From Sipunculus nudus (taxonomy: Eukaryota; Annelida; Sipuncula; Golfingiida; Sipunculidae), in assembly GCA_026874595.1 (NCBI GenBank), contig CM049318.1:39453956-39517955 (forward strand): a stretch of 64,000 bases of DNA, given 5' to 3'. Below are positions 18,304-62,097 of the stretch, one piece after another; positions within the stretch are counted from its first letter, which is position 1, and each line of letters opens with the position of its first letter. The notes under the pieces were generated by a model, which saw nothing but the letters and a program-made list of their open reading frames with translations, made no database searches and was not told the origin of the DNA. A program made the position numbers and the translations under genes.

Positions 18304-18503
18304 ATGAACAGACCTCTAGTTTTGCTGCTGCTACTGATGTTAGCATGGACTATAGGTTCATCTCAGAAAACTTTGTTTCTTAGCAGCACCACAATGAGCT
18401 GGAATAGCGGGCGGACTTACTGTGCGACACACGGAGGCAGACTGGCAACCGTAAAATCAAGAGATATCCAATCACAGATGGACGGGATAATCGCCTCTAC
18501 ATG
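18304..18503 (+). other. Lectin exon 1: signal peptide and first half of domain
   Basis: Encodes residues 1-66 plus two bases of W67. The hydrophobic run L5-W15 is followed by GSSQ, a plausible signal-peptidase site. The domain's start (MSWNSGRTYCATHGGRLATV) has the conserved first-helix pattern of C-type lectins: Trp, Ala/Gly-x-x-x-Cys and GG-x-L-A. Reading on past the donor meets TAA at once, which supports splicing. Confidence 0.85.
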
Positions 18504-21917: not shown

Positions 21918-22081
21918 TGAAAGTGGAAGAGGATAATTATGTGTTTTTAAGATAATTGATATACTTTGTAACATATGTGAAACACCTGCCAGGCCGTAAT
22001 TGTATCTGCAAATATAATATGTAACGTATTACGTATTAACATGCTTCGATAGACGTACCAGGTTCATGAAATTCCGTTTTA

Positions 22082-25696: not shown

Positions 25697-26405
25697 TGAA
25701 AAAGCCACACAAGGAACAAAAAGCCACACAAAGGAAAAAAAACACACAAGGGGAAAAAAGCCACACAAGGAAAAAGACACACAAGGGAAAAAAACACACA
25801 AGGGAAAAAACCACACAAGGAACAAAAAGCCACACAAAGGAAAAAAAACACACAAGGGGAAAAAAGCCACACAAGGAAAAAGACACACAAGGGAAAAAAA
25901 CACACAAGGGAAAAAAACACACAAGGAACAAAAAGCCACACAAAGGAAAAAAAAAACTCACAAGGGGAAAAAAGCCACACAAGGAAAAAGACACACAAGG
26001 GAAAAAAACACACAAGGGAAAAAACCACACAAGGAACAAAAAGCCACACAAAGGAAAAAAACACACAAGGGGAAAAAAGCCACACAAGGAAAAAGACACA
26101 CAAGGGAAAAAAACACACAAGGGAAAAAACCACACAAGGAACAAAAAGCCACACAAAGGAAAAAAAACACACAAGGGGAAAAAAACACACAAGGGAAAAA
26201 ACCACACAAGGAACAAAAAGCCACACAAAGGAAAAAAAACACACAAAGGGAAAAAAGCCACACAAGGAAAAAGACACACAAGGGAAAAAAACACACAAGG
26301 GAAAAAACCACACAAGGAACAAAAAGCTACACAAAGGAAAAAAAACACACAAGGGAAAAAATGCCACACAAGGAAAAAGACACACAAGAGCAAAGGCACA
26401 CAAGG
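25697..26405. repeat. Purine-rich minisatellite with higher-order structure
   Basis: An array of 15-21 bp variants of ACACAAGGGAAAAAA, grouped into larger units of roughly 105-125 bp that begin AACAAAAAGCCACACAAAGG (25708, 25821, 25928, 26036 and so on). The strand bias is extreme (A, G, C; almost no T). Several frames on both strands stay open for over 200 codons because T is absent. The resulting KKPHKEQ and FFPLCVF repeats are artefacts. The flank at 25318-25330 (CCTTGTGTGACTT) carries the motif inverted, and a CCGTCC tract follows at 26420-26465. Confidence 0.9.
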
Positions 26406-34089: not shown

Positions 34090-34280
34090 GTGTGTGTTCT
34101 TACAAGAGACAGTCGAGGGATAACAAATAACATTTTTGCCACAGAAGTTGCCACAACATAAATGGATTTTAAGAACGGCTTTACTATACTATAATTTTCG
34201 CTTGAACTTTACATTTATTGCCTAGAAACACTAGGCAGCGTGAAATGTCTAGGGGAATAAATAAAGAAGTCAGTGGTTTT

Positions 34281-39610: not shown

Positions 39611-40340
39611 AACAACACAATGATACGTATCGGTTAAGTTTCCATTTCACTACTGACCACCGGGAGACACCGAGTCTATATATGGAGTCATATGTTGTGA
39701 GTATTTTCTTATATTTCCTCGCAAAGTATATGATTTGTCAAAATGTTATATATGAATGTTCATAATATTAGATCTATTTCCAATTGCATCAAACCGTTTG
39801 TTGATAATACAAGTATCTGAATATGCATGTGCGTGTGTATGTGTATAAATCCATAACCATCTCTGGTCGATTTCTGTATTTAGTATACCATATCTATACT
39901 ATATTACTAAATATAATACACGTTCGTCCACTCAGCATTCCGAGTGGTTATGAAATAGTTACCCGAAAAATATATTATATACACATGAAAACAGAAATGC
40001 AGACGCCCATGGACTCGCACGGTGATGTCTTTTTCTCATCCCATATAATGATTACAGTGTAATGGATATACTTTAATAATCTTTCCTTAATTTCATTCAA
40101 TATACGTCAAATTGAATATCTTTGTCATATAACAAGGGATCTAAATACGAATTAAATCACTTTGTAATTCTTTCGCGTCTGTGTCTTTCCCTTCTTAGAA
40201 AAAAAAATCCCTGTTTATGGGTTCTGAGTCACCTGTTTTCCTTCCAAAAACGTCAATTCAAAACATAAAGAATCAATGCTAGTTTTAGTGATTAACTTTA
40301 AATCCTTACTTGTTTGCTGTACTCATGCATGAGAATTGTC

Positions 40341-40623
40341 TTATTCAGAAGCGTCATTTCTTTCTGGTACATTTTCTACAGACTGTGAAGATGTCTTATA
40401 ATCACACGAATCTACAAGTGTATGATAGTCAGAAGGCGACGGTCCAGGTGTCAGGTAATCAGACGACGGAGGTACAGGTGTCAGGTAATCAGATGACGAA
40501 GGTACAGGTGTCAGGTAAACAGATGACGAAGGTACAGGTGTCAGGTAATCAGATGACGAAGGTACAGGTGTCAGGTAATCAGTGGATGATGGTACAGGTG
40601 TTTGGTAATCTCCATCATCTTGC
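40341..40623 (-). other. Receptor terminal exon: tandem YLTP repeats
   Basis: The acceptor is ACTGTAG|; 283 nt to TAA at 40343-40341. A 30-bp repeat encodes DYQTPVPSST, DYLTPVPSSS (twice), VYLTPVPSSS, DYLTPVPPSS, DYLTPGPSPS, then DYHTLV and DYKTSS. Six YxxP sites (Crk/Nck-type SH2 consensus) and SDYHTL (ITIM-like) are visible. The plus-strand ORF of VQVSGNQMTK repeats is the antisense shadow. Confidence 0.75.
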
Positions 40624-43600
40624 CTACAGTATAAATTACATTACATAATCAGACCTGTGTTCAGTAAGCTCATTCTATAGAAAAGCAACAAAATAACAGA
40701 TTAGGTGATATGGTCTAATTTTTGTGACGTTGATTTCTTTTTGTATGGTCTCTTTTGCATTAATGTTCCACTAGTGAGAAAGTGATAAACTATCGATTAT
40801 ATAATTTTCACATATGAAAAGCTGTTTTCCATCAATTTCCCTCATTGCGTTACTCAATCTTAGCATAGTATGCAATTCTATGCTGTACATGTTTTTGAAT
40901 GATAAGATGTATACGTACTGTTTGATACAAAATCATATATACTAATACTAATATAATAACTTACACCGAAGCTTCGTATTCCCCTTCGCTCTCAGGAGGC
41001 GTGGGTATGGTTGCGTATTCCACATCTCCATTATCAAGATGCCGCATAGGTTCATCATTACAGAGTGTAGGCGTCTGTTGTCTGTAAAACGTAATGTTAA
41101 ATACCTCTGTTGTCAAATAATAAAAATAAAAATAATAATAATTATTATAATAATTTCATTTAATTAACTTTTCAAAAAGGTGGTTCCATGGCCTGTGAGT
41201 CGAACATTCTGTTAAATGGAGATGTAGGTAACTATACGATAAGTATGATGTGTATCTGAAATTGTTTTTGGAGTTCAGGTTTTATAGGCAAAGTCTATGA
41301 ATAATTCATAAGCGGTTGGAGCAAAACTCTTGGGTACTATATCTAGTTCACCAATTTGCTTATGAATTACTACCGGGGTTCGAATCGTGGTGCATTTGCT
41401 CTGAAGTCCAACATCTTGACCACTAGTCTACATTTTACCACTCCCCCACCCCGTCAAAGTTAAACATGAGACATCTAAATCACAGCTCATTGTACATGAC
41501 ATCCTCAGTATAGCTTTAGAAATCAATGTGAATAAGAAATGATTGGAACCTCAAAGTCCACAATTTGGGCCCCCGTAATGCCCTGTTCCTAAAAAAGGTC
41601 TGACAGTAGAAGGCTATCTTTAACAATGGACACTGAAACAATCCTACAAACCACTTATGACTGCTATGGTCTCTCTAACTGCAAATATGATAGAATGCCA
41701 AACGGGGAAATTATTCGCTGCTGCTTGTCTCTCAAACGGTTTCATCAGAAATGTATTGATGCTACTGAGGACCAGCAGTGAATTATATGTAGTATTCCCT
41801 CCCTTTGTATCAATAAATAAGTGAATTGCAAACGTTAAAAACAGAAATATAAAGAATCAGCAATATAAAATCAGCTTGCTGAGATATTGACGCGACAGTA
41901 ACCCAATGCTATGTAAGTCCATGGGCTAAATAGGAGCCACCAAGAGTATGATTTATTACGTGAGCGTCTCTAGACAGATAACAAATTTAGCGTGTTCAAG
42001 TGTCGACATCAATAGTCAAAATGATTCCTAGTCGCAAATTGATGCCAAAACCTCTGCTGAAAATAAATAGAAAAAAACAAAGGTTGTCCAGTGCTCCTAC
42101 AAGTTTGGACGTGAATGACTCTGGCAAAAGCTATACTAATGCTTATCAGCCACGGGAACATAACCGACGGGATTCAAAATCTGCTATCAGACGACCTTCA
42201 AAGCAAAAACAATTGTTATTGATAGGTGATTACTTGTCCGTAATTCAGGGTCACGACTGACTAAAAAGCTCCATGATCGAAAGACAGTGGTAGTCAGCAC
42301 AAGTTGACTTAAATTAGAATCGACTAAAGACCAAATCGTCAAGGCTTCCAGCAGACTCAAGAAGGATGATTGTCTGGTGCTACAGATTGCTACAAATAAC
42401 CTTGATGATGTCTATGATCTTGATTGACAAGATTTAGCTATCCCATATCAGTTTGGATCCGATAATACTTGCATTAACAAAAGAATCAATGCCATTAACA
42501 AAGTACTGTCAGAGTACTGTTCCGTTCAAACAAGGTCATTTTATTGAGTGTAACCCTGGTATTTGTGCAACGAATTTTCGGAAAGTTGGGAATAATTTTT
42601 TACATGCTGGAACAACTGATTTTGTAGAACATCTAGCCAGTAACATTGGCAAGATTAATTGACTGCAAACAACGAGATGAGGTAAACGTTCACAAGATCC
42701 AGTTAATACAGATTACCAGTTAGAACCTAGCGATGAATCCGTTTCAGCACTCTTTGGTCATACTGACGAAAAAAATATGCATGATTCTGAAGGTCGGTCT
42801 ATGTGTGGATCTCCAGATATTTCATTTGCAACTACAAAAAAATGACGACCGAATGTAAATGTATTATAAATAGCATACCAAAATTTAAGGGCATATAATT
42901 TGTTCATTTAAATGTTAGAAGTATCCTCAACAAATATGATGAAAACTTAACAACCACGAAGGCGGCGTTGCTCTATATGTCAGCACATTATTGTCTGCAA
43001 TACGGTCGATGAAGCTGAAGCGATGTCTGTGAAAGGAAAAGGCATAACTGGGAATTTGATAATTTCTTCAATGTATCTCCCTGCATTCGTGAACTTCACT
43101 TATTTTAATTTACTCATAAACAAAGTCATTGTGTCATCCTATCACATAATATTCCTGTCATAATCACAGGGGATTATAGATGGAAATATCGAATCCAGTT
43201 TAGTATCTTATTAACAAATACAACGATGTTCGAACCTTTTTCAGCTTCATCAGTTGATAAATAAACCAACCAGAGTTCCATACCCTCAGCTACCGTGATG
43301 GACTTAATATTTTCAAGCATACCAGAAGATCACACTCTATCTAGTGTCGTTCCATTGACCATCAGTGATCATTATATGGCATTTACGGTTAAATCCTTCA
43401 AAGTTCCAACTAAACCATGTAAAACAATAACAAAACGGTATCATAAATAAAATAAACCTAGTCACTTTTCGCCTGGTTTAATAAGCAAGTGGCCCATGGG
43501 CCATGACGCTCAGCTGAATTCAAGGAATGTTGAACAATGAGCAAAATGACTGCTAGAGTGCAAACAAATCATGAATATTGTGAAGAGTCCTTAGAAATGG

Positions 43601-46600
43601 GAGTCAGTGAGCTTTTGGACAGATGACAACTTCATTTGAATGTCTCATAAATAGAAAAAAATTGCGTAAAAAAAATGAAAAAAATACAGGTAGTGCCACC
43701 AGTCTGCAGAAAACTGATGAAACACTCATTTTCATGAAACACTTTTAATTATTCTTGGGGGTATTTATGAGCCCTATAGCTCGGAGAATATGGGTAACAG
43801 AAACCTAATTTCAGGTTTCCAAGGAGCTTTTTCATTAGCCTCCCTGGATGTCAAGCAAGAACATTCTAGGTTCAGCAGTTACAGTTTGTGCCATGTTAAC
43901 AGATGACCACTTCATTTGAAGGTCTCTTAAATAGAGAAAAATGCCTAAAAATGAAAAAAAATACAGGTGGCACCACCAGTTTGCAGGAACTGATGGAACA
44001 CTCCATGATTAATATGCCTGCGAAGAATCATGGAGATCAATGCATTAGTTATTCAGATACTGGAGCTTTTGTATCAAATTTTTAATTATTCTGAGGGGAA
44101 CTTACTACGAAGGATATGGGTACCAGAGACCTAATTTCATGTTTTCACAGAGACTTTTCATGAACCTCCCTTGATGTCAAATAAGAAGAATCTTGGTCTA
44201 GCAGTTACGATTTGTGCCCTGTTAACAGATGACAGCTTCTTTGAAGGTCTCAAAAATAAAGAAAAAAATTCGTAAAAATTTGAAAAAAATACAGTTGGCG
44301 CCACCAGTTTGAAGGAACTAATGGAACATCCCATGATCAATATTCATGCAAAGAATCATGATGATCAATGCAGTAGTTGTTCAGATACTTGGGCTTTTGT
44401 ATCAAATTTTGCATTATTCTGGGGGGTACTTTGGAGCCCCATAGCTCCAAGGATATGGGTAACAAAGATTTAATTTCAGGTTTTCACGAAGATTTTTCAT
44501 GGAACTACCAGGATATTAAGTTTGAAGATTCCAGGTCCAGTGGTTACGATTTGTGCCCTGTTAATAGATGACAGTTTCATTGAGGTCTGGAAAAAAAGAG
44601 AAAAAATTTCGAAAAAATTGAAAAAAACAGGTGGCGCCACCATCTGCAGGAAGTGATGGAACATCCCATGATCAATATTCATGCACTGAATCATGGTGAT
44701 CAATGCAGTAGTTATTCAGATACTTGAGCTTTTGTATCAAATTTTGCATTATTCTGGGGGGTACTTCGGAGCCCCATAGTTCAAAGGATATGGGTAACAG
44801 AGACCTAATCTCAGGTTTTCAAGGAGATCTTTCATGGACCTCCCTGGATATTAAGGTTGAAGATTCCAAATCCAGTGGTTACGATTTGTACCCTGTTAAC
44901 GGCCGGCCGGACGGAGGGACGACGGACAAAGGGTAATCGCTATAGCTCAGATGACTTTTAGTCAGCAGAGCTAAAAATGTTAAATAATATAATTATATCA
45001 CCTGAGAACACGATTAATAAAACCTGGACAAGATGGAAAACATAATTTGCTAAAAACTAGCTCTGATTTGATTAAATAAAATTCGAACAAGAATAAAATA
45101 AGGATAAATTATGTTTTGAAACTCATAAGATTACGTAATAAAATACATGTAGAAGCCTATAAAAAGAAATCTCAAATACAAAGCTTTACAAAATCTGGTA
45201 ATAATACTAAAATAATCAATGGACAGTTAACCTACCTCAAAACCAATGTAAACAGGAAAAAACGGTAACTCAAAAGGAATGTGGCAGCACTCAATCCAGT
45301 TTTACCAGGTAAAATAAAAAACGAAATGAAACCTTCAGACTTTACACATAATCAGTTTAATGACTTCTTAAGTACAGTGGATGAAAATCTAGCAAACAGC
45401 TTTTCATCTTTTCTTCTGTCCCAAAATCTTATGGATTTCATATTCCTGAGGCCTCTGTCACCGATGTTTACATTGCAATAATATCGCTAAAAGATAGCTA
45501 TTCCTTAGATATAACTGACATGCACTGTCTCTGGCTGACTCTAACTCGTATGCTGAATGACTCAGTTATCAGTGGAATCTTACCATGTGTTTGAAAATGG
45601 CTAGGATCATACCTGTGTACAACGGTAAAGGTAAACATATTCATATGACCAATTATAGACCGATAGCGATCATTCCATACCTAGCCAAGGTGTTTGAGAA
45701 ACATGTAAAAGATCAAGTAATGAAATTCCTTATTTATGCCAATTTTATATCGGATTGTCAGCATGCCTACATACTAAACGAATCTACCATTACTGCTCTA
45801 CATACTTTCACTGATGACATCAACATACATACAGATCAAGAGCATCTTACTGGTGCATGATATCTAGCGAAAGGTTTCGATACAATCGAGCTTTCACTAT
45901 TAATAAACAAACTTGACCAGACTCCAAATCATACGATGCATAATGGAAAATATCAAGACCTAGAAAATGGAATATTGGTGTCTCTCGAGATTCTATACTA
46001 GGACCAGTATTATTTTTTCTTTATGTCAATGACCTATTTTTTTCAGCTGTTATAGTACTTCAGTATCAGAGGTTTAAAGTACATTATAGCAAGCTTTAAA
46101 CTTCTGCTGCGACTGGTTTGCTGCTAATCGATTGACGATTTATGTAGTTAGAACTAACATAATGTTATAAGGAAATAAATCTCGCGTAAATTGTCAAAAA
46201 CTGAGCATAACGGTGAACAGTATAGTTCTATAACAACTATATAAATCAAAACTATTAGATTTAACTATTGATGCAAGTCTATCTTTGTTGCCGCATGAAA
46301 AAGTACTTTCGAATAAATGTTCACCTAAGCTTGCATCTTTAAACCGCCTCTGAAAACTTATCTACAGATACATTATCTGTAGTGTATTAACCGGGTTAAC
46401 AGGCTCATACAGACTATATGCTTTAAGTGCATGGGGAATAGACTAACCGGGCAGTCTATATCATTACTGGATGTTTTAATTTTTATGTTCGAAGTGCATC
46501 ATTAGTACGAATATTGAATTTGATGTCTGTATCAAAACGATGTGAATACTTTATAGCCCTTCTTTTGCATATATTATTACATCAAACAACGCATATATCT

Positions 46601-47022
46601 CTGCGATAATCATTTTCATTGGTCATTAACTCTCATGATTACTCAATAAGATCTGCAAGGAATACTGTATTTTAATTGCCCTTACTAGAACGGGTTATTG
46701 TAGATCAAGTTTTATTTATCCTGGTCTATTATTGTGGAATACGTTGCCAAATGTGCTCAGATCAGTAAAGTTCAATTTCAAGCATAGCACCATAACATTC
46801 CTTTTGAACTCTTAACGTCATACTTTATAGGTTTTTTTAGGTTTTTTCTTCGATTCTTTTTACGTTTAATTATACCCTAAAATACTTGGATAGTAACTTG
46901 GATAAAACACCGGTTCCATCATTTACACAAGATTCGCAGTGAATGCAACGTTTCATGCTTCTATTTTACATGTTCACAATATGCATGACTTTATCATCAT
47001 TATACTTCTGACAGATTTAATG

Positions 47023-47098
<76 letters not shown>

Positions 47099-50000
47099 TA
47101 TGAATAGCCTCGCTGGTTCTTTGTATATAGATGGAAAAGGTATACACAGAAAAAACGGTTCCCACCTTCAGTGAACCGACTGTGTATAACATGCATTTTC
47201 ATCTATGGTTTGTAATACAGTTTATGAGGCAGATAAGAATGCATCGACAAAACATACCGCGGCTTCCGAGTGTAGAAGATGGCTGATGCACCGAGTACAA
47301 CAATTAGTATTACTGCAAAGCCAGATGCCAAAGCAAGCATATACAGAGGGACGCCGGCCTGTAGGCCCGGAGATGATAATATATTAGAAACGTCTGTAGT
47401 CTCGCTCAGAGGTTCTGTTGTACTCGGGATGCCTACAAAAGAAAATTGCCAGTTACAGTTGCTCGTTTTTCATGGCTTATTTTAACTGGTTAAACATTTG
47501 AAAAACCATCTCAGAAAGAATATCTGATGTATGCGCCAGGTATAATTAAGAAGTTCAAAGAAACGAAACGATGACAGAAAACAAAACATTTAGCTCTTTG
47601 TATACAGGTCCATCATTCGTTCACATCATAGTTCATATAATAATATGATCAGGTGCAGCATCAAAGCCACAGAAAAAATTTTGAGATATATTATTACAAA
47701 ATTATATTTGGGCAAGACATCAAATCAACAAATAACTAGATCCATGAAAATAAACTTTTGAAACAGCATAATCAAAGATCAAATCTTATCTATATTCTTG
47801 TATTAAATGTGTATTTGTAACAAGGCAATGTTTGTCCTTATGTACCCATAAAGTGTTTGTGTAAATTAAACTGCACATATTAAAAATTAGCTCCTCACAC
47901 TAATGCACATTAAATAGAAAAATGATTACAGCAAAAAGAATGATGTAATATGTTGATGCTGATGTTACAAACCAAAGTCTTCCGATGACCGAACTACCTT
48001 CTGGCCCCAGGGATTTCTGAATGCTGATATGACATCCAGAACAGTCCCATTAGTGTGTATAATCAGCACCTTACTGAAAAGACACGGTAGAGACATTATT
48101 TGTTAAATATTCTCGAAATGATTACATTTTAAATGACAGTAAAATGCAAACACAAAATATCGCGCTTTTGTTTTAACTACAGTACCATGGACATGTGCCA
48201 GCATCGTCTGATCAAGTTTTAAAACAGTTGGGGAAAATCAGGTAGAAACGACGGCTCCTTTGTTGTACACACGCATATAATAAAATTGTAACTAGATAAA
48301 AAAGAGGATTTTCCTTTGCCACGTGTTAGGATCGAATTTTATTTTGAATTTCTAGCTGATAGATTGTCATATACATTCGGGGGCGGGGGGGGGGGGGGGG
48401 GGGGCATCAGCACTGGCAGGATTATATGATCTATTATGCTTCAAGATATTCACATCCCTTACTTGAAAGTAGTCCCAATTAAGTATTACGCATTTTGTTC
48501 ACATTGATCAAAACCTAGAGAAACAACCGGAAAGAGGGGAAAAATAAATAAATGTTAGAACGAAGCTAACGGTATAGCTAACAACATTCACCTGGGGATC
48601 GTGTCGCATCCCGTGAAACAGTCTGTAGTGAATTTGCAGTGTTGTTTTTCTTCAGTGTTATATCGCTCTGGCCTTGTCTGAAGGCCATAGAGCACTTTAC
48701 ACCGGAGGGTAACTCTACCTTGGATGTCCATATCTTTATTCTGCGCCGACTGGCTCTTTTGCCTTGACGCGATTCTATACGAATTTGTCTGGCGACTGAT
48801 CGCTTATTATACGCTCTTTACACAGCGCTTTACCTATAGGCCTACTACCAATAGCGTTAGCGCTGTCTGTTATGACCTCGTATCCTGAATTTCTACACCA
48901 GAGGGGAGCACTGTATTTTTGTCGAATCAGAAGACCTTCTGCTGGAAGACACGGCCAAGCGAGGAATACACGGAGCCAATGTTGTTCATTTCGTTTTGAG
49001 TGACAGCTCGTCGCCCCGGTAACCGTCCGAACAGGCCAAAGGCTCAGAGAGAATGGCCCCAGACGTAATTTGCTTAGGGCCTTGAGCTGCCATTCAAACG
49101 AAACGTAACAACAAAGGCTGCCTACACACCTCGCTGGCTATTTTCAGTTCTGCAGACAACAGATACATGGCTACGCTAACACAGTCATAATGTCATGATC
49201 GAATCGGTCGATGATGCAAGAATGCAGAAGGAGCAATTAAAATTCGACTAAAAAATGTCATCAAGGGGCGCTTGAAGCGCAGCTATTGGCGGAGCCAGGA
49301 TGCCTGTCGAGTGTTTGTTCATTGGCATCTGGTTGGCTGCATGTCACATTATACGCACGTTTTTTTTTTTTCAGCGGACAACGAACCGCCATCTGGTGTC
49401 TAAATATATCATAAACGGTCAAAGCAGGCAGCGTGAAAATCAGTTGCTTCTTTAGAAGCGCAAGATTTCCGCTGCCTCGAGAGCGTACGCTTATTATAAC
49501 TGAAAGTGCATCGTTGATGAGCGCACCTTGTGACGTTACTTGCGACTGCCAGTCACAGATGATCGCAAGGTTTCTGGCTTGTCAGAAAACGCGCGATTTA
49601 CTTGCGATTCTTTGCGACCAACAGCGATTGAATTTGGGAGGCTTGTGATTGAATATGTGACTGAATGTCAGCCAGTTAGTTAGTGGGGTTTAATGGTCAG
49701 GTCAATTTGTCGCCGGCCAGTCGCAGACTCGGTCTGTCTGCGTTTCAAAATCGCTATTTAATGTAATACCGTCGTCTACCTTCGTTTATTCTAAAACTTC
49801 AGTAGTGTGCAGACACCATATTGTTCAGTTTAAACACCTTCCTAATTGAGAAAAAAATCCCTGATCTTGCGTCTACGACTGGTCATAGATCCCATTTCGA
49901 AGTAATCACAGATGATTGCCGATTGTCAGAAATGGCAGGAAAATCGCCACTGGCAAGCAGGCTTAAGTTCACTTTAGAATTTATTTGCAAGAAAAGCGTT

Positions 50001-53000
50001 ACAAAGACCTTGATAAGGGAAACGATATGTAGACCAGATCGTTGCTCTAACCTAAGTAGCCACAGAACCCGTGTTCAAGGTTGAATAATTCGCTCCGAGA
50101 CGTCCCATCAAGGGATACTTCCTCCACAGTCGGTTTTAACTGGTTACACCAGTAGAGCTTATTACCTGAAAATATTAATTAACGACATATTTAACATACA
50201 GACCCATAGTTATATATGTTTATTTATGATAATTAAAATTAAAAAAAAAACTTATTAAAATAGTTTACAGATTTTCTAGAATTTAAAAAAAATATATTCT
50301 TACCCAGAATGTCAATTGCAAATATATTGGGACTTAGTTCTCTGGTATTGTTGTCAGATATGAAAGTTGTAACTTCGGAACCAGATAAATTAGCCCGAGC
50401 AATTAACCTGTTTTTCGAGAATGATATGTAGATGTACCTAAAAATGTAACAACATGGATAATAAAAATTTATATTAAATTACTTATGAAGGCCAAGGCAT
50501 AATTGAAAGTTTTTATATAAATGTTCCAGCATGACAATAATTGCTTTTTTCAGTTTCAGACTAGGCGAATTTATATAAGACATTACAAAAAGGTTTATAC
50601 CGAAGATATCAAGTTACCCATTTGCATTGACGCCGTCAGTTCCTTCCTCGTTTCTTAATTCAGTCTGATCTCATACCTGTTAATTAAATCAAGTTCTATG
50701 TCGAAAGGCTTGCCATATAAGAGTGTAGGTAGGAATGTTTTCTGATTCCCATTTTCGAGATGAATCAGACTGACTGTATTGTCATTCTGGTCGGTGTAAT
50801 ATAATGTGCTGGTAGTGGAGTCTATCGCTAATCCAAGTGCGATTATGCCTACGGTTCAAACAATGAAAACGGTCATTTTTTACAACAATTCCTACCCCTC
50901 ATGACGGAATAATGAAATTAACTAGATGTGGTCGGACAATGGTCCTCAAAGGGCCCCGCATTTCGAGTCGTGGTTAGCTAGTTTACATATGGGTAAAAAG
51001 TTTAGTTTATAGTTTCAAAATATGACAAAGAGAAACAGGTTTATAGCAATATGTATGAGGGAAAAGATGCTACTGGTTCAAATCATTTAAAAGAAGATAT
51101 GTCTGAAAAAAATGTCTGTAATACAAAATCTTAGTTTGTTGTCTGGCCACCATATAGGATTTTAAGCAGGTGTGTAATTTGACAGGGATGGAGCCCTCAT
51201 AGGTACCATTCATCCCTATGAACTTGGGAAAGCTGAAGAATGTTGTTGTTGAGTTATCACGCGCGAAAAATAAAATCAGCGATTTGGCTGTGGCGGTCAT
51301 ATTGGAATTGTGACAGGTCGGTAATTCAATAGGTCTGGAGCCCTCATATGTACCAATCATCCCTGTGAATTAGGAAAAGCTGAAATATGTTGTTGTTGAG
51401 TTATCGCGCAGGAAAGGAAGTGTCACTGACGGAAGGACGGAATGACGGACTGACACGGTGATCACTAAAGGGCACTGCTGGTCAAGCGGGCCCTAATTTT
51501 CGTTAATATTGTTTCAACAACATGTTATCCCATCCTATGGACACAGGAAGGAACAGCTATACGTGTGACTTTTTAGAAGGCAAACCCCATTAATTAGTCT
51601 TGGTAAACTTAAGAGTGAAACTAGTGATCTCTGCATCGTAACGGTATCCGGGCCCTTTTTAATTTATGACAGGGAGGAGAGTGTAGTTTGTGATGCAGTT
51701 TCAGTTCTCAAACCTTTTGATTTTATATCAAGAGTTATCGTATCAAGAACTGTTGTTTTTGTTAGTCAGTTAGCGCTGCTTATTCGCCTCCATAATTGAA
51801 TGATTTTAGGTCATTCGCCATATTCAATAAATTCCATTTTGTAAAAGGGGTTGTTCTGGGCCTTTTTTCCTGCCGCGGATTACGCCCGAAACAAGTGAGC
51901 GATAGTTGTAAGACAGTATCCATCAGGCATGAAGTAAGCAGACTGCTGATTGACACTCTGTTCCCCCAAGGAAACAGTGAGAAAAAATGAACCAGGAAAA
52001 TTCAGTGAGAGGGATACTCAATAACAGAAGCATGGCGTGTCGTTTCCCTTCGAGGGGTGTTATGGTTCTACCTTTCCCCCACAAGGGGGACTGAAGGATG
52101 AGCGCGTTCTAACCCCAGAAATCTATAGGACAGGTGACTGGTGAACATCATTAGTGCCTACTCATCAACATGGACCTCCATCCAGGAAGGAGAGAACATA
52201 TTATATGACAAACTGAGCACCACCATCAGGGAGGTTCGGCTGAAAGACTAGCGCTATTTCGGCCCTTTGACGTTAGGGGGTTCTAAGACAAGAGTACTGC
52301 CTGTCAGACTGCCTTAACATCCTTCAGTCAGGAACGCACTTTTAAGGCAAAATGAGGCTATATAATATTTTCAACATTTCTGACAACGCCTCTAATGGCC
52401 TACAAGTTCGCTATCGCTTAACATAAAACCAGACCAATCGTTAGCATATTGAGAATACTTTCTAACAACCTCAAACATGAGCTAGAAAATTCCATTTTAA
52501 TATTTTTGGTAAAATCCTTCCGCATGTTTGTTGAATTTCTGACCGCATGAATACAGGCATGGATCGCACGGGTTACTGGACGCAGCTTACTTACTGGAAA
52601 TCACTTGATGCCACGTAGATTCAGTTATGTTTGTGAGTTTTCATGAATTATTTTGTGTTAATTCTTCAATGTTAAGATTATGGGCTTTCTACCACGATAT
52701 AACATGCTAGAAGAGCACTACGATGCATTCCTCGATGGCTTGTATCATGATTCAAGCCAGGTTGTACTAAAAGACCCACTGTATTTCTTTTGAGATTCCG
52801 ATGCTAAAGTTGGGACCTACCATTGGAGATAATGTAGCCTTTTGGGAACTTGAAAACGAATGGGACAGGCTGCACATACAGGCTGCATCATAACCAATTC
52901 TCTTAACGCCAAGAAAACCCGCAGCACAGATTGTTAGTGTGAGAATAAGACACACTTATTCTCTCAAGTAGCCGCCACTGCCCGGGCAGTGTCAAACAAA

Positions 53001-55690
53001 GTGCGACACTGATCATACTAGTGTATGCTGTAGATTGAAAATTGGCTTCGTACTTCAAAAACAGAAAACAGAGCGTGGGTCGACCGTGGTGCGGAGTTTC
53101 ATTAAAACTCTATCCTTACCCTGTCTGGTAAAGAAACGACATAGACAAACATTAGATGTACATATATGTTGGACAGCGGCTTTATCACAGTCTGGCCTAG
53201 CTCTACGGGGAGACAAGTCATCAGACATTATTGCAGCTAACTTCAAGCAAATGTAGTCGAGTGGTCAGTGTCTGATATTCTTCCGATACACTGTGTGAAA
53301 TTAGTTCAAAACTGAGCGCAAGGTGACAGTCAGTTACGGATTTTCACCAGATTCTCAAAATATTTTCTACATATATCAGGGCCCTCTTAGTTTCTTTCAA
53401 GGACCATAGTTGACAATAATTCTCGAGGAATTTCTCATTGTGGAGAATTCATGATTATTCACTCATGGGACGACTTGGAGTAGTTGAAACATTGAGAAGT
53501 ACTTGGAAATTTGGATAGCTCGAACGTGAAATAAGAACAGACTAGGAATGTTTAAGGAAACCGAGCAACTACCATCCATCTATGAATTAAAATCAGTCAG
53601 CGGATTTTTGTTTGTATCTGTATCTTTTTTAAACACACAGATTGACAAACAAAAAGGAGCATGGTCAAACAACACAGCGTTAACACCAGTCTGAATGTGC
53701 AAGGTCGGCGTATAAAAAACTGTACCCTACGGCTACCAATATAAAACTGAACCTTGCGGTATTGGTACATTAGGAGGACTTCCCCTGTGCGAGGGGATCC
53801 TGGGCATCTCCATATACTCAGCGCTCCTTCTGAGGACAGTCGTTACCTATTTCAGGGGAAGTGGGAAGAAACCGTGCATATTACGTTTTCTGTAGTGATA
53901 CATGCTATCTCCGTACGAAGTCAGGCACTACTTTATACTCATATATAGTGCAGTTTCGTCCATTCCTCGATATAAAACAAAGCCACAGACAGGGATTCGA
54001 GCGACTGTGTTCAGAGACGCCTGTGTTGGGTTGGTGATATTTCCCGGAAGGGAAATAGACACATCCCGAAGGACATTCTCTATGGCGAGATTAGGACGGG
54101 AACGATGTCCTTATCGAGATTAAAATTGCACTACAAGAGCCTGAAGTAACTAGCTATAAACTGCGATTCTCAATTTTCTCGCATCAGATGATTTCAACTT
54201 TATGCTAAATTTATATAAAAGTAGTTATATTACTAATCGTGAGGCATTCTCCTTGGCTCAGGTGGTAGCGTTCGGTAGCGCCTAGGGTTGGAGGGCCCCG
54301 GACAGCCCGGAGAAAACCACGGGCCTTCGACGATTCATTACAACCATCTCTTAAAACCCAGCGGGCATCGAATCCGGGTCGCCAGCGGAGAGAGCCGAGG
54401 GTTTTACCCCTTCACTGTAAAGACCTCCTAAACGACCTGGTTACGGGAAGCAGAAACCCCTATATATGAGTAAAACATACGCTACAGACTTAGGACAGCC
54501 ACCCAAGGCACATGCTCCTACTTTAGATTTTATTCTTTGTCAATGATACTCCCTCTTATATATCGAACACGTTAGTGACAAAAGTCAAAACGATCAAAAG
54601 GCAGAGGCGCATAAACAATCTCTCGCGAAAACTGATGATTGAGGGGTCATTTTCTTAGTTGGGGCGCAGCATATCTGAGAGTGCAGAGGATTCCAAAATC
54701 TGGAAACAGCCTGGAGTGACTCAGGGAGAGGTTTGATACGTCTAGTCTGTGGCTAAATGGTTAATGACAGCTAGATTACAGCACATAGATATTACGGTGT
54801 TACCGTATCGTATACCTTTCTAAAAACAGATAAAGAGGACCATCACTCACTGCATGGGCACAGGAATTACAAGTTTCGAGATACCGTATCACCTGACGAT
54901 TGCTCGACAACATGGCATGTTTGTATTAAAATTAATCTTTATGTTGTTAGATCATACAGATGACTCATTGTATCGCAAGGAGAACTTTGGAATCCGCTCA
55001 ATGTCATATGCAAACTTCAGGAAAACATTTTAAAATCCAGGGATCGCTCAAATAACATAAAACGTAAAATGTTAAAGATAAACATTCAGGCTGAATGCAC
55101 GAAGAGCAAAAAAAAAATAAATTATCGTTATTTCGTAGAAAAAAATGCTAGCAGTGATTTTTATGTAAAACATAAGAAGGCTTATGTACCACAAACCTCG
55201 CAATAAAACCTTGTGATCCGTTCGGTAAAGAAATATCGAATCGATTGTCCCGTTTCCCATAATGTTGCTCCAGTAAACACGCTGATCCCGAGGATCATAT
55301 TCGACAGCGAACGGTTTTGCATTTTCTGACTGGTATATGTCCTCTGAATTTTTGGTCTGTAGATTTATCTTTGTTATAGTTCTACTAGCAGGAAATCATC
55401 AGTGACATGAGCTAAAAGATCAACATTATATATATATATATGAATAATTATGTAAATAATTATAAAAATAAAGAGGTATCAAATTTCGTCAGTTTCGTTT
55501 AATATGTTGCACTGCTCAGGTAAGACTCTCTTATCATATAGTTTCGTGGAACATGTTGTTTCACGTAGTTTCGTGTAACATGTTGAAACATAGAGGACTC
55601 CTGCAGTTGATAATTGCAGGAAACCTGTAGATTAATTTATATATATTATATATATATTCTGTATTTATTATATTTATTTATATAATATAT

Positions 55691-55726
<36 letters not shown>

Positions 55727-57561
55727 TACAAATAACAGAGTCAAAATTCAGTGAGATTAAAAGATTATGTGATTGCAGGACGCTAATAAAAAAAGGATTT
55801 ATTTAAATATTCTGTTCAAGTATTTACCAGGTCCTATCCTTCAAATATTTCTAGGATCGTGCTGGTGACCTTTTTTTATAGCCCCCAGAAACTATGATAA
55901 TTCCAGGTCAAAGATTTGAACTCTGAACTGAATCGACTTGAACAGTACGTGGAGCGTAGTGGCATATCAGTTACTACGCGCCCACTATGGTTGGTTGCGT
56001 GGCCAGAGGATTTTGTTTTGTGTCATGATACTGGCCCTGCATTTGTGGTCACTACCTGTGTGGGGCGGACACAAGATTTGTGAAGCCTCCCCTTCACATA
56101 GTGTGCAAACATTTTTGAACCTAGAAAAACACTAAGAGAGGGCAGACCTCCACCAAAGCAGCTCATTGCCCAAATATGGTATTGTAAGAAAAGCATCTTT
56201 TAAGATAATTTCTGGATCCAGATGGTGATCCGAATCACCCCCAAATTTTGATCAATTGTTTATTGTATCCTGAACAGTTCTAGTAATGTTGCTAACAAAC
56301 AAACAGACCAACAAACCAACGCCTGCAGAAACAGAACTCCCGCGCCTTGGGGGAGGTAATTAGCCTGCAATATTGCACAATCCGGGGTAGTTTAAAATGC
56401 ATACTTATGGGGTACCAGGCTCTGCTTTTCGGTATTTATCGTGGATTATTCATTTCCCTATTCTTAGGTTGAATTAAAGTCACATATGCCAACTGCGACA
56501 CCTCCTAATCCTGTTCGTTAAATAAAAGCCCCCATCGCACTCATTGGTTGTTTGAACATTAACCAAAGTACCATATTTACATATATTTTCTGGAATGAAC
56601 ACCGATCTCGGAGTGTGTATGGACATACCATGAGACGACACAAATTAACTATTTGGAGTGTTCGAAATATTCAAGAATAACGGATTATTGACGAAATACA
56701 AACGAGTTGAAACTTAATTAACATGAACATGAACAAAGTTGAATTGTTGGGAAAATATAAATTCACAACACTTGAAATATTTAGACGCAACCTTAAACTG
56801 TAAAAAGATATTTTTATTTAAAGCTATTTGCTTTGTTAAATGACAAAGCTTTTTTAAATTTCTACATTAATTGCTATCCTTATGATATATGTTCTCCGTA
56901 GGCTAGGTAAAAAAATTAAAGAAAAATTATTTTTATTCTAGCTTTACGAAGTCTATTTCTTTTCGATACGACATTAAATATAAACGACATGATCACTGAT
57001 GCATTCACTGGTTTGATGTTGAACTAAGCAAGAGTACATGTAACTAAGTAAACGAGACTCCAAAATAGGTAGAATTTGCGCAGGAGCAGCAATATATTTC
57101 TTCTCAAGTGATTAGCTCTAACGACCAAAAATATCTGCCGACCCATAGGATTATTTTATGAGAGGTGGTCACAAGTGCTTCTTGAGTTTATCCTTTTGAT
57201 TGCTTATGTAACCCCTTTCACCCATCTATTTTACCCATAATTCAATATTTGCAGTATTCATCATTTACCGCAATAAATGTTTAATATTTTGTCGCATTTA
57301 AGAAGTAACGTAGGTTTGTGTAGTAGCAATTAATCAGCTATTTATGTATGTAGTTTACATATAAAAAAGTGGGATATTTTACGAATTCATATGCAGGTTA
57401 GAGCGTCCGAGATATCTTGCGATTCTATAAAAAAAAAACAACATGATTTCCCATTCACAAACTATTCACCATGCAGATATATGTAAAATGTACTCACGTT
57501 GTCCTTGCCGGACTAGTGTACATGCTAGTATTAAAAACAAGCCGAATATTCTCGTCGCCAT
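40341..57561 (-). CDS. YWTD-propeller receptor with YxxP/ITIM-like tail
   Basis: Read on the minus strand, exons are 57561-57498 (ATG, signal peptide), 55384-55197, 50848-50674, 50437-50304, 50165-50052, about 48700-48592, 48073-47973, 47432-47258 (membrane), 41081-40965 and 40623-40341 (TAA). Junction phases agree from 55197 to 50052 and from 48592 to the end. The join from exon 1 to 55384 is out of phase (1 against 2), so at least one short exon is missing; the join into the 48.6 kb exon is also unsettled. The ectodomain shows four YWTD-type strands (VYWSN, LYYTD, IYISF, LYWCN) with the RANLSGSEV and EEVSLDGTSR turns of LDL-receptor class B repeats. A helix and a long Tyr-rich tail follow. 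Role inferred: surface receptor signalling through SH2 adaptors. The family name is unknown to me. Confidence 0.75.
40432..40615 (-). repeat. 30-bp coding minisatellite in receptor tail
   Basis: Six units of 30 bp built on GATTACCTGACACCTGTACC. The inner units are nearly identical and the outer ones diverged. Tyr and Pro at +3 are kept in all six; one unit has Val for Asp before Tyr. Confidence 0.9.
40965..41081 (-). other. Receptor tail exon with ITIM-like motif
   Basis: The acceptor is GTTTTACAG| and the donor GGT|GTAAGT; 117 nt. It encodes QQTPTLCNDEPMRHLDNGDV, then VEYATIPTP and GEYEASV. VEYATI fits (I/V/L/S)-x-Y-x-x-(I/V/L). Confidence 0.75.
41985..46830 (+). mobile_element. Degenerate CR1/Jockey-like LINE in receptor intron
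   Basis: Ordered LINE blocks in shifting frames on the plus strand: an SGNH-esterase-like part (KQLLLIGDYLSV at about 42205, CLVLQIATNNL at 42373); endonuclease (VHLNVRSILNKYDE at 42903, NNHEGGVALYVST at 42953, VIITGDY at 43159, VVPLTISDHYMAF at 43349); reverse transcriptase (LKMARIIPVYNGKGKHIHMT and NYRPIAIIPYLAKVFEKHV in 45585-45860, SILGPVLFFLYVNDLFF region near 45990); and the C-terminal PGLLLWNTLPNVLRSV block near 46735. Stops and frameshifts abound, the FADD motif is not visible, and a pearl-like element interrupts it at 43483-44974. It lies antisense in the intron between the receptor's membrane and tail exons. Confidence 0.75.
43483..44974 (-). mobile_element. Complete helentron/pearl-like element C, inside LINE
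   Basis: Reverse orientation: 43483-43520 is the 3' end (GCAAGTGGCCCATGGGCCAT then GACGCTCAGCTGA). Four to five cores follow with GGTGGCRCCACCAG and CCATGATCAATATTCATGCA, then GGCCGGCCGGACGGAGGGAC (44901-44920), and the 5' hairpin (ATCGCTATAGCTCAGATGAC and TTTTAGTCAGCAGAGCTAA) ends at 44974. It splits the LINE between its endonuclease and reverse-transcriptase parts. Confidence 0.75.
47023..47097. repeat. (TA)n(GA)n microsatellite
   Basis: Compound tract of about 32 bp TA and 42 bp GA in the receptor intron. ORFs with SLSLSL/YIYIYI are artefacts. Confidence 0.95.
47258..47432 (-). other. Receptor transmembrane exon
   Basis: The acceptor is TTTTGTAG| and the donor CGCG|GTATGT; 175 nt. It encodes a Ser/Thr/Pro-rich stem (IPSTTEPLSETTDVSN), then the helix (YMLALASGFAVILIVVLGAS and AIFY) and the stop-transfer residues TRKPR. 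Phase agrees with both neighbours. Confidence 0.8.
47973..48073 (-). other. Receptor juxtamembrane exon
   Basis: The acceptor is TTTTCAG| and the donor TTTG|GTTTGT; 101 nt with phases 2 and 1. It encodes KVLIIHTNGTVLDVISAF and NPWGQKVVRSSEDF, possibly the last propeller blade. Confidence 0.6.
48379..48404. repeat. Poly-G tract
   Basis: About 22 of 26 bases are G, interrupted once by C. Lies in a receptor intron. Confidence 0.9.
48592..48700 (-). other. Probable cysteine-bearing exon of receptor
   Basis: The donor CCCCAG|GTGAAT joins in phase to the next exon, giving CDTIPS then KVLIIHTNGT. The open frame contains QHCKFTTDCFTGCDTIP with three closely spaced cysteines. The acceptor is undecided: AAAG| at 48698, or CCAAG|/GTAGAG| slightly upstream, all fit the phase of the preceding exon but have weak pyrimidine tracts. 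Another frame is also open here, so the call is tentative. Confidence 0.4.
48720..49800. other. Intronic stretch rich in TCGCA-type words
   Basis: No exon recognised. 49500-49760 has many GCGATT, TCGCAA and CAGTCGCAG words on both strands, suggestive of a decayed foldback repeat. No ends were identified. Confidence 0.3.
50052..50165 (-). other. Receptor propeller exon (LYWCN blade)
   Basis: The acceptor is TATTTTCAG| and the probable donor TTAG|GTTAGA, with a stop codon immediately beyond in frame. It encodes NKLYWCNQLKPTVEEVSLDG then TSRSELFN. Confidence 0.75.
50304..50437 (-). other. Receptor propeller exon (IYISF blade)
   Basis: The acceptor is ATTTTTAG| and the donor CTGG|GTAAGA; 134 nt. 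It encodes YIYISFSKNRLIARANLSGS and ends NIFAIDIL. The turn I-x-RANLSGS is the class B repeat signature after the YWTD strand. Confidence 0.8.
50674..50848 (-). other. Receptor propeller exon (LYYTD blade)
   Basis: The acceptor is CCGTAG| and the donor AACAG|GTATGAG; 175 nt with phases 1 and 2. It encodes ALGLAIDSTTSTLYYTDQND and ends PFDIELDLINR. Joined to the neighbours it gives the usual YWTD spacing of about 43 residues. Confidence 0.8.
50925..51495 (+). mobile_element. Pearl-like element of a third family, in receptor intron
   Basis: Two cores of about 165 bp (51170-51290 and 51310-51420) share GGAGCCCTCATAKGTACC, ATTCATCCCT or AATCATCCCT, and GAATGTTGTTGTTGAGTTAT or TATGTTGTTGTTGAGTTATC. 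They are followed by GACGGAAGGACGGAATGACG (51429-51448) and GTGATCACTAAAGGGCACTG, ending near CAAGCGGGCCCTA. The order core-core-ACGG tract-terminal stem matches the other pearl-like elements with unrelated sequence. Confidence 0.5.
51500..54240. other. Receptor intron, mostly unannotated
   Basis: No receptor exon recognised. Contains interspersed repeat copy 2 (52561-52770). Confidence 0.35.
52561..52770 (+). repeat. Interspersed repeat, copy 2
   Basis: Homologous, in the same orientation, to 30757-31015; shared words include TCGCACGGGTTACTGGACG and CTTGTATCATGATTC. Confidence 0.6.
54241..54470 (+). mobile_element. SINE-like repeat with tRNA-like A box
   Basis: TTGGCTCAGGTGGTAGCG (54252-54269) matches the pol III A-box consensus. 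GGGCATCGAATCCGGGTCGC (54363-54382) resembles a B box but lies farther away than in a tRNA. The CCCGGAGAAAACCACGGGCC block between them can form a stem. Higher GC than the flanks. No second copy in the window. Confidence 0.4.
55197..55384 (-). other. Receptor propeller exon (VYWSN blade)
   Basis: The acceptor is probably TTTCCTGCTAG| (exon from 55384), though TAG| at 55381 is possible. It encodes TITKINLQTKNSEDIYQSEN, then PFAVEYDPRDQRVYWSN and ending KVLLRG at donor CGAG|GTTTGT. The pattern FAVEYDP-x-x-x-x-VYW is diagnostic of a YWTD blade. Confidence 0.75.
55616..55721. repeat. TA-rich and (GA)n tract
   Basis: Imperfect TATATAT region followed by a pure (GA)n of about 30 bp at 55691-55721. 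Confidence 0.85.
56147..56357. mobile_element. Small MITE-like element
   Basis: The left end ACCTCCACCAAAGC and the right end GCCTTGGGGGAGGT are inverted repeats with two mismatches in fourteen bases. The interior includes TTTCTGGATCCAGATGGTGA and AACAAACAAACAGACCAACA. The target duplication is not clear. Confidence 0.45.
56360..57497. other. Receptor intron 1, expected site of missing exon(s)
   Basis: No convincing exon found, although the phase mismatch between 57498 and 55384 requires one somewhere in 55385-57497. The sequence is AT-rich. Confidence 0.35.
57498..57561 (-). other. Receptor exon 1: signal peptide
   Basis: ATG at 57561 with A at -3 and G at +4. It encodes MATRIFGLFLILACTLVRQG and Q, a hydrophobic core then a small-residue/Cys stretch, and ends at CAAC|GTGAGT. 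Reading strand, donor quality and position upstream of propeller exons support it as the first coding exon. Confidence 0.7.
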
Positions 57562-59802: not shown

Positions 59803-62097
59803 CAGGGGCGGATTAAGGTTGCATGGGGCCCCTGGCTGTATTTCAAGCAGGGGCCCTTTTCCTCAAACATATAACCTGTGTACAAATAAACAAGACATGA
59901 AAACAAAAACAAATTTTATGCCTTTATATGCTAGCTATCAATCCATTACATGCAACATAACACAAGTATATAGCAGTAATACTGTAATAGCACGTCATCC
60001 CATCATTCACATGGCACGTTTTCGGGTTTTCTTTATGGCAAAGTCATCAATTAAGTCATCAAAATTGACTGCACTGACAATTTCAGTTTCAATGCTCATC
60101 AGGGAGAGCATACTTAGTCTCAGCTGCTGCATACAACTTCTGACTTCACTCTTTATTCTCTTCAACTTGGAGAAAGATCTCTCGCCACTGCAGTTTGACG
60201 TAAGCATACACAGATAGATATGGAGTGCAATGTGCACATTGGGGAAGCTTTGTGCACAATTTGTTTCATTAAGCAGCAACAGCATTTTTAGCTCTGGGGT
60301 TTGTTCCGTGCATTGCGTTGAGGTGTGTCCCTGTTCACTCACAGATTTAAAAAGTTCTACAAACTGAACTAACTCATTAGGGAAGCAGTCTTCAAATTCA
60401 GTTGGGTAGTCTTTCATCAAGTTTTTTGCTGCTTCTTGGGTTGCTTCACTGTCTAGCTCAGTCAAGTTTGAGAGAAATCCAAATTTCATCTCAACTTCTT
60501 GATATGCCTCTAAGCGCTGGAGAAGGGCTGAAGTCATTTTGTCAATGATAGGGAGAAACACCTCAACCCTGAACTTTTCTCTGGGCGAGAGAACTGTTTC
60601 GGCGGAGGGTCCCTCATCAAATTGTCGCTTTCTCTTCTTTTGCCGTTTGGATGATTCTTTGTACTCTTTGTCCACAGACTTTACCTTTCCCTTTTCTTCA
60701 TAACGCTCGAATTCAGAACGCTGACCTTTTACAAACTCCAGAAGAGATTTCAACAAGTTTACTGCGGAGTTAAGAGACAATCCACTCTCTTGGAGGGACA
60801 AACTTGTTTTCTGGAATCGCTCCAGGATTGTGTCCCACAATTCCAGCAGGATTGTGACTTCGAGTTGCTGAAGTTTTTTCAAAAATCCTTCGGCCTCAAG
60901 TCTGCTTTCTCTTGGTTGATTTTCTTCAGTTGCTAGATCTTCAAGTGCTGCAATGTTCTCGTTGTAGCCTCTACTTACGGCCCTAACAGCATCGTGTCGC
61001 GCTGACCATCTCGTGTCAGACAAAGCTTTGTTCACAGGTAAACCTTTCAGGTGAGTTCGATGTACCTGCCAACGATGTGTAGAGGCGACAAGCCAAGCAT
61101 AAAGGCTCTGCAGAAGATAAAAAAATCCGGCTGCGACAGGACAACTTTCTGCTGCACCCTTCCCAACTAAATTCAGGGAATGTGCTGTACAAGGTACGTA
61201 ATGAGCAACACTGGCCCTCTGACGAAGAACAGCCTGGACGCCTTTATACTTCCCGCTCATGTTTGCAGCGTTGTCGTATGACTGTCCACGGCAATCTTGT
61301 ATGTTTATGCCATGTTCATCCAAGAAATTTAGGATGATATTGGCAATTTCAGACCCTGTGTGAGAGTACATTGGTATAAATTTAATGAATCGTTCAACCG
61401 GACCAGACTTCAGAACATAGCGGACAATAACCGTCAGCTGCTCTACATGCATGACATCGGGGGTGGAGTCTACAGATATGGAGAAGTACTTTGCGGATTT
61501 GATTTCATTAATGATCACAGAGAGTACTTTTTGGCCCATCAACTGAATTACTTCTTCACAGATTGTTGAAGACAGATATGACGCGTGTCCACGTCCCTTG
61601 TTTGCATGCTTACTGATGTGCTCTGCAAGAAATGTGTCATATTGACTCAGTAATTCAAGTATACCAAGGTAGTTACCGTTGCTAGGAGAGCCAATAAGTT
61701 CATTCTTGCCACGAAACGAAAGACCACGAATGCAAAGGAATTGTACAACGCTGGCTATTCTCTGGAGAACTTGATTCCAATATTTGACCTCCATGTCATA
61801 TTGCTTCACTAGATCACAGTCGATTTGACCAGTTGCTTTTCGCGCACATAATGCTGCCATCGCATCAAGATGCTGTTTCGAGTTTTCATGTTTTGAAAGC
61901 TGTTCATGAGCATGTTTCCAATCATTGAAGCCGCTTGTAAGCTTACTCACCACAGATGACATTAACTTGCACACAAAACAATAAACACGACCACTGGTTT
62001 TAGAATAACATAGCCAATTTCTGTCGAACTGTTCATCCAAGAACACATCAGGTAAATTCACTACTATTAGTGCATTCACACACTCATCATAGGACAT
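59803..62097 (-). mobile_element. hAT element, one end preserved
   Basis: The end downstream of the transposase begins CAGGGGCGGATTAAGGTTGC at 59803 followed by ATGGGGCCCC, a typical hAT terminus. No matching inverted end (CCGCCCCTG) is found between 62097 and 64000, where minisatellite units begin immediately instead. The element therefore looks truncated on its 5' side. Confidence 0.6.
60007..62097 (-). CDS. hAT/ZMYM1-like transposase or domesticated derivative
   Basis: One uninterrupted 696-codon frame. A TTF-type zinc-finger-like start (FDRNWLCYSKTSGRVYCFVC, C40 and C43, with H66-H73 beyond) is followed by a DUF4371-type RNase-H core with catalytic D210 (SISVDSTPD) and D275 (QSYDNAANMSG), the CTAH motif at 303-306 and W364 (DTRWSARHDA). 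Then come an alpha-helical insertion with a basic nuclear-localisation-like run KRQKKRKR (484-491) and a hAT dimerisation region 620-675 with the family ERSFSKLKRIK (E639). The family joins DNA ends by cut-and-paste. Intact length and motifs mean recent activity or selection. The N terminus is short: usual members have more residues before the TTF finger, and the ATG lies in minisatellite-like DNA. Stop TGA at 60007-60009. Confidence 0.85.
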   Translation of the reverse strand: MSYDECVNALIVVNLPDVFLDEQFDRNWLCYSKTSGRVYCFVCKLMSSVVSKLTSGFNDWKHAHEQLSKHENSKQHLDAMAALCARKATGQIDCDLVKQYDMEVKYWNQVLQRIASVVQFLCIRGLSFRGKNELIGSPSNGNYLGILELLSQYDTFLAEHISKHANKGRGHASYLSSTICEEVIQLMGQKVLSVIINEIKSAKYFSISVDSTPDVMHVEQLTVIVRYVLKSGPVERFIKFIPMYSHTGSEIANIILNFLDEHGINIQDCRGQSYDNAANMSGKYKGVQAVLRQRASVAHYVPCTAHSLNLVGKGAAESCPVAAGFFYLLQSLYAWLVASTHRWQVHRTHLKGLPVNKALSDTRWSARHDAVRAVSRGYNENIAALEDLATEENQPRESRLEAEGFLKKLQQLEVTILLELWDTILERFQKTSLSLQESGLSLNSAVNLLKSLLEFVKGQRSEFERYEEKGKVKSVDKEYKESSKRQKKRKRQFDEGPSAETVLSPREKFRVEVFLPIIDKMTSALLQRLEAYQEVEMKFGFLSNLTELDSEATQEAAKNLMKDYPTEFEDCFPNELVQFVELFKSVSEQGHTSTQCTEQTPELKMLLLLNETNCAQSFPNVHIALHIYLCMLTSNCSGERSFSKLKRIKSEVRSCMQQLRLSMLSLMSIETEIVSAVNFDDLIDDFAIKKTRKRAM

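Follow-up and report, generated by a model that had tools for sequence, protein, structure and literature searches.

An eight-exon chain on the minus strand

We analysed a 64,000-nucleotide stretch of Sipunculus nudus DNA (contig CM049318.1, positions 39,453,956 to 39,517,955), here called the window, in which the minus strand between 57561 and 40341 carries, in this order as read from their translations, one exon for a signal peptide, four for YWTD-type propeller strands, one for a membrane helix and two for the tail. Spliced together, the eight exons amount to 1275 bases encoding 424 amino acids without an internal stop, and the phases agree at 7/7 junctions. A preliminary description of the locus had proposed a receptor in which a YWTD propeller is joined to a tail of tandem YxxP motifs. 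All of its propeller, helix and tail exons were recovered, and the open chain with its consistent phases supports their predicted joining. The exons of this chain are numbered 1-5 and 8-10; the doubtful exon at 48073-47973, treated below, stands outside it.

Exon 1 (57470-57561) is an open exon starting with ATG that encodes a signal peptide with a hydrophobic core and, probably, the first propeller strand, REYILHISA. Its donor at 57470 scores 2.6, within the top 2.8% of GTs, and leaves a phase that suits exon 2. The YWTD-type strands VYWSN, LYYTD, IYISF and LYWCN lie in exons 2 (55197-55384), 3 (50677-50848), 4 (50304-50437) and 5 (50052-50165), respectively, all of which agree in phase and together match LRP-type propellers in the PDB. 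Exon 8 (47258-47432) follows with a stalk containing Ser and Thr, the membrane helix (best 19-residue mean hydropathy 2.52) and a basic stop, YTRKPR. The tail is encoded by exon 9 (40965-41081), with the motifs VEYATI and GEYEAS, and by exon 10 (40341-40623), with YQTP, five YLTP, SDYHTL and DYKTS, closed by a stop codon at 40343-40341; ATTAAA is found downstream of it, at 40077.

Splice sites were scored with weight tables built from general knowledge of animal sites, which are not species-specific. On this scale, the seven acceptors of the open chain fall within the top 1.4-12% of minus-strand AGs and its seven donors within the top 0.7-5.3% of GTs. When the whole window was scanned blind for strong open internal exons, the minus strand yielded 11 rows (exon plus phase) and the plus strand 14. 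The 11 include exons 4, 8 and 9, and exon 9 (41081-40965) is the sole phase 2-to-2 row among them. Rfam and tRNA scans of the whole window gave 0 matches, and a sushi-like string within 56589-56484 was discarded, having no Pfam sushi match.

Between the helix exon and the first tail exon lies an intron of 6176 bp (47257-41082), which holds a reverse-transcriptase remnant on the plus strand at 45561-45860 (RVT_1, E 0.00078; 19.6 bits against a cut-off of 29.6) and, at 43619-44977, repeats of about 335 bp that are inverted relative to each other. Related repeats form tandem arrays at 22078-23482 and 34278-36333 as well.

The propeller and its in-frame TAG

Exons 2-5 (203 residues) matched 39 distinct PDB sequences at E <=0.01, mostly of the LRP/LDLR family, with LRP2, LRP4, LRP6, LRP8, VLDLR, LDLR and nidogen represented. 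The top match was LRP2, with an E value of 2.6e-54 summed over several of its propellers, the best single stretch among the alignments shown having 2.6e-09. Judged by this similarity, the propeller exons belong to the YWTD-propeller superfamily. Adding the end of exon 1 to the query raised the scores of LRP4 (161.2 to 164.4 bits) and LRP6 (5gje, 84.0 to 85.6) and lowered that of LRP2 (8em4, 186.8 to 185.4); the shifts are mixed and lend a first strand at that position weak support. Another start, with HVTDDFLLV (from an acceptor at 55411) as the first strand, followed by a frameshift at exon 2, was dropped, as the donor at 57470 joins exons 1 and 2 in frame. The PDB scores do not discriminate between the two starts (5gje: 86.1 bits for the longer query beginning with HVTDDFLLV, 85.6 for that beginning with exon 1). 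Scans of genome contigs with exons 3 and 10, and of viral contigs with exon 2, gave no relatives.

Directly beyond exon 5, an in-frame TAG at 50049-50047 precedes a probable fifth strand, VYISF, in what was probably once the 3′ part of the same exon (50009-50051). The open YWTD-type strands are spaced by 42, 44 and 46 residues, and VYISF lies 41 residues past LYWCN in the same frame. The doubtful propeller-closing exon at 47973-48073 would accept phase 2 and leave phase 1; its acceptor is within the top 3.6% of AGs, and shuffles give it no alignment support (best local score reached in 2200/5000, summed score in 2780/5000). A complete form running through 50165-50009 and 48073-47973 into exon 8 keeps phase with the TAG inside it, and uses weak donors both at 50009 (top 23.6% of GTs) and at the end of the 48073-47973 exon (top 18.7%). 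All fully open splice chains found omit the fifth strand. Thus, the copy at this locus may be made as the four-strand open chain, i.e., in a truncated form, may be a null allele or pseudogene, or may carry a base error at the TAG, and its ectodomain is probably damaged or truncated.

Other exons that could bridge the gap were tried and rejected. Between 50052 and 48074, two phase 1-to-2 candidates were found with the first thresholds and four with looser ones, none of them blade-like by eye. With a phase 1-to-1 candidate, 48941-48834, the chain stays open at 460 amino acids; however, its inclusion with the stalk in the query lowered the scores of LRP2 (185.4 to 182.4) and LRP4 (164.4 to 158.9) and slightly raised that of LRP6 5gje (85.6 to 86.2).

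Among the explanations competing with a working receptor, the strongest is that of a pseudogene or null allele, in which a propeller that once had six blades is now interrupted at blade five by the TAG, with the tail not yet decayed, so that no receptor would be made. This deserves serious consideration, even if we do not place it first. Of the 1009 stop-free 12-residue frames in the intron, the string of the fifth strand that follows the TAG matches the four strands best, and across the window it ranks 41 of 63590; the form that includes blade five stays in phase up to the next candidate exon although interrupted. On the other hand, the remaining chain is open, the codons of the tail repeat look constrained, and the support for blade five itself is mixed: shuffles reached its best local score in 65/5000 cases and its summed score in 1627/5000, or 541/5000 and 1512/5000 when the next candidate exon was added, and the best PDB stretches stop short of it. 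Massive presence-absence variation of genes is described for a mussel in the passages available from PMC7653742; by this precedent, a damaged copy could be a single haplotype out of several, were the host a bivalve.

The tyrosine tail and its 30-bp repeat

Beyond the helix, the tail holds ten tyrosines, to which one at the membrane border (FYTRK) can be added. A recount confirmed the six YxxP sites of the preliminary description, YQTP once and YLTP five times, borne by a coding tandem repeat at 40429-40610 on the minus strand (30-bp unit, 6.1 copies, 90% matches). Six or more YxxP occurred in 43/20000 shuffles of the tail, a figure that has to be read with the six sites being one repeated unit and not independent. 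Repeat units 2-5 depart from the consensus at 0, 1, 0 and 2 bases, and the outer units 1 and 6 at 6 and 5 bases. The near-identity of the inner units supports recent tandem growth of the repeat, and with it the earlier proposal that the number of docking sites grows by repeat expansion.

The repeat contains 14 changes in total. Read in the receptor frame, 8 of these are silent, where a fraction of 0.30 is expected (P=0.031, indicative only, as this is one of six frames looked at and the copies are related). In each of the other five frames, between 2 and 4 of the 14 are silent. None of the 14 falls in the codons for Y, T and P. A long stop-free frame spans the repeat on the plus strand as well (40292-40648), and no silent excess is seen in any of the three plus frames. 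A match of the tail to the viral contig L001 (E 3e-5, one of 17 candidate stretches) was set aside as a coincidence, only LTPVPSSSDY being shared.

VEYATI and SDYHTL are the only matches in the tail to [SIVLT]xYxx[ILV], the consensus of the immunoreceptor tyrosine-based inhibitory motif (ITIM). Their fit had been pointed out previously and holds, but two or more such sites were present in 2426/20000 shuffled tails, so the ITIM consensus is not represented beyond chance. YATI and YHTL fit the endocytic YxxPhi signal too, a role at least as likely for them as that of inhibitory ITIMs. It could be asked whether the tail is mainly endocytic (YxxPhi, AP-2) or inhibitory (ITIM, SHP-type phosphatases), the YxxP array being a minisatellite by-product. 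We find this unlikely. The two motifs do match both consensus forms, and LRP-type receptors are commonly endocytic; however, the unchanged Y, T and P codons of the array, the frequency of ITIM-like pairs in shuffled tails and the absence of NPxY from the tail all speak against it.

A second membrane protein with a coding minisatellite is found elsewhere in the window, encoded by a C-type lectin-like gene on the plus strand (18229-21917). The exon of its first C-type lectin-like domain (CTLD) reaches 16.8 bits with Lectin_C, below the cut-off of 22.6, and that of the second (20100-20366) reaches 32.7 bits, above it. They are followed by an exon with a coding repeat of 27 bp (STTVTESEP, 21356-21614, 9.6 copies) and a hydrophobic segment. 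In addition, an array with 17-bp and 106-bp periods at 25698-26388 has long open frames on both strands, as repeats alone can yield open frames.

Interpretation and comparison with known systems

The reading we put first, tentatively and with slightly less than even confidence, is that the locus is a present or recent gene for a small type I receptor related to LRPs, with a tail that acts as a multivalent dock for SH2 domains of the Crk type. Such a receptor would consist of a signal peptide, one LRP-like propeller, the short stalk, a single helix and a tail of about 138 residues that has no kinase. Once its ectodomain is bound or clustered, a cytoplasmic kinase of the Src or Abl type would phosphorylate the tandem YLTP sites, on which several Crk-type SH2 adaptors could then dock, their count being set by the number of repeats, as in DCBLD1/2 and p130Cas. 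The sequence shows the exons and their phases, the propeller homology, the helix, the repeat and the TAG; expression, a single joined transcript, phosphorylation and Crk docking are what we infer. In favour of this reading are the open in-phase chain, the ranks of its splice sites, the PDB matches, the silent excess and unchanged Y, T and P codons of the repeat, and the precedents of DCBLD1/2 and of choanoflagellate proteins.

Several observations weigh against this reading. The open chain encodes only four YWTD-type strands, and none of the open chains found would give a six-bladed fold; hence, of the YWTD propeller in the preliminary description, the family assignment stands through PDB similarity and the intact fold does not, its probable fifth strand lying past the TAG. 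Pfam Ldl_recept_b scores 17.9 bits on the propeller exons (cut-off 21) and 16.7 bits with the read-through form, DUF5050 scores 22.8 bits on the same exons (cut-off 27), and Ldl_recept_b is absent from the Pfam listing at E <=0.1 for the whole 424-residue chain. With Pfam below its cut-offs, superfamily membership rests on the PDB comparison. The tail is without a homologue among PDB sequences, and the exons are without one in prokaryote or viral contigs, collections in which an animal gene is not expected. The silent excess in the repeat, being only indicative, belongs among these points as well. The signalling role proposed earlier is nevertheless plausible, given that CRK-family SH2 domains are known to bind such tandem YxxP tails in other transmembrane proteins, while the incomplete or broken ectodomain and the weakness of the ITIM part detract from it.

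Two further explanations concern the integrity of the gene. The TAG could be a base error or a rare variant, with the gene whole in most individuals, given that a single codon interrupts the otherwise phase-consistent complete form. We consider this improbable, because the donor needed at 50009 is weak, and an uninterrupted hAT frame of 696 residues nearby speaks against poor sequence overall, though not against a single error. That frame (60007-62097, minus strand) contains DUF4371 and hAT dimerisation domains and possibly represents an intact hAT-type transposase. More doubtful still is a division into two genes, with exons 1-5 (propeller) and 8-10 (helix and tail) on separate transcripts: the contents of the helix-tail intron and the lack of a homologue joining propeller and tail in the PDB, prokaryote and viral collections would suit it, but the exons share a strand, the phases agree across exons 5-8-9-10, and a scan for signal-peptide-like start exons gave two candidates that do not fit in phase: a short one within intron 8-9, which does not suit exon 9, and another within intron 5-8, which leaves phase 0 where exon 8 requires phase 1.

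Returning to the Crk-docking receptor, a bolder version of it, which seems to us rather unlikely, is that of a functional minimal LRP-derived receptor with a propeller one blade fewer, whose fast-changing Crk-dock minisatellite sets the strength of signalling, with the number of adaptors varying between individuals. Arrays of YxxP are a known means of gathering Crk-family adaptors. The propeller and the YxxP tail are each known, and their pairing was not found in print within the literature searched, a scope that excluded most subscription journals. If the Crk-docking receptor is real, the combination of an LRP-type propeller with a nearly uniform 30-bp YxxP repeat would offer a natural series for studying how the tuning of a receptor depends on its number of docking sites; a dead copy would be of no more interest than any damaged gene.

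Proteins of the LDL-receptor family carry LDLa and EGF modules and have NPxY or PPPSP tails. Their propellers in the proteins named above, together with that of nidogen, match the locus in sequence across exons 2-5; the locus differs from the family proper in its tail without NPxY and in its one incomplete propeller, and Pfam lists no LDLa or EGF modules in the 424-residue chain at E <=0.1. Cueball of Drosophila has a single YWTD propeller. It resembles the locus in being a type I membrane protein with LRPs as its most similar proteins (PMC3127973), whereas its tail bears an acidic dileucine sorting motif, and a YxxP array is not mentioned in the passages available from that paper.

With respect to the tail, BCAR1/p130Cas shares the tandem YxxP but, as far as the consulted descriptions go, is cytosolic and has SH3 and FAT-like domains. 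DCBLD1 and DCBLD2 are, according to the passages available from PMC6029619, transmembrane receptors that lack a kinase and have 8 and 7 YxxP, respectively, on the intracellular side; these sites bind the SH2 domain of CRKL, promoted by Src-family kinases (Fyn) and Abl. Their sites appear, from the low conservation between them described there, not to form a uniform short repeat, in contrast to the 30-bp repeat of the locus, and none of the DCBLD ectodomain modules (CUB, LCCL, FV/FVIII) is listed by Pfam in the 424-residue chain at the same threshold. Among choanoflagellates, transmembrane proteins with several YxxP (PTSG_05573, 12435, 12436, A9VAL3 and A9V449) are reported in the available part of PMC5043372, as are the binding of phospho-YxxP peptides by the Crk SH2 domain of Monosiga and the retention of the ancestral CRK/CRKL gene in invertebrates. 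These proteins have tandem YxxP like the locus, with ectodomains of the DUF5011, C2, EGF, thrombospondin or growth-factor-receptor type, and three of them have SH2-like domains. Since the YxxP sites of DCBLD1/2 bind the CRKL SH2 domain and the Monosiga Crk SH2 domain binds phospho-YxxP peptides, the tail of the locus, if expressed, would by its motifs most likely work as a multivalent Crk-type dock. With six YxxP behind one predicted helix and no kinase domain listed by Pfam, the locus fits the layout of a Crk-type docking receptor; its exon chain is real, and it could plausibly be a new variant of this known kind of receptor.

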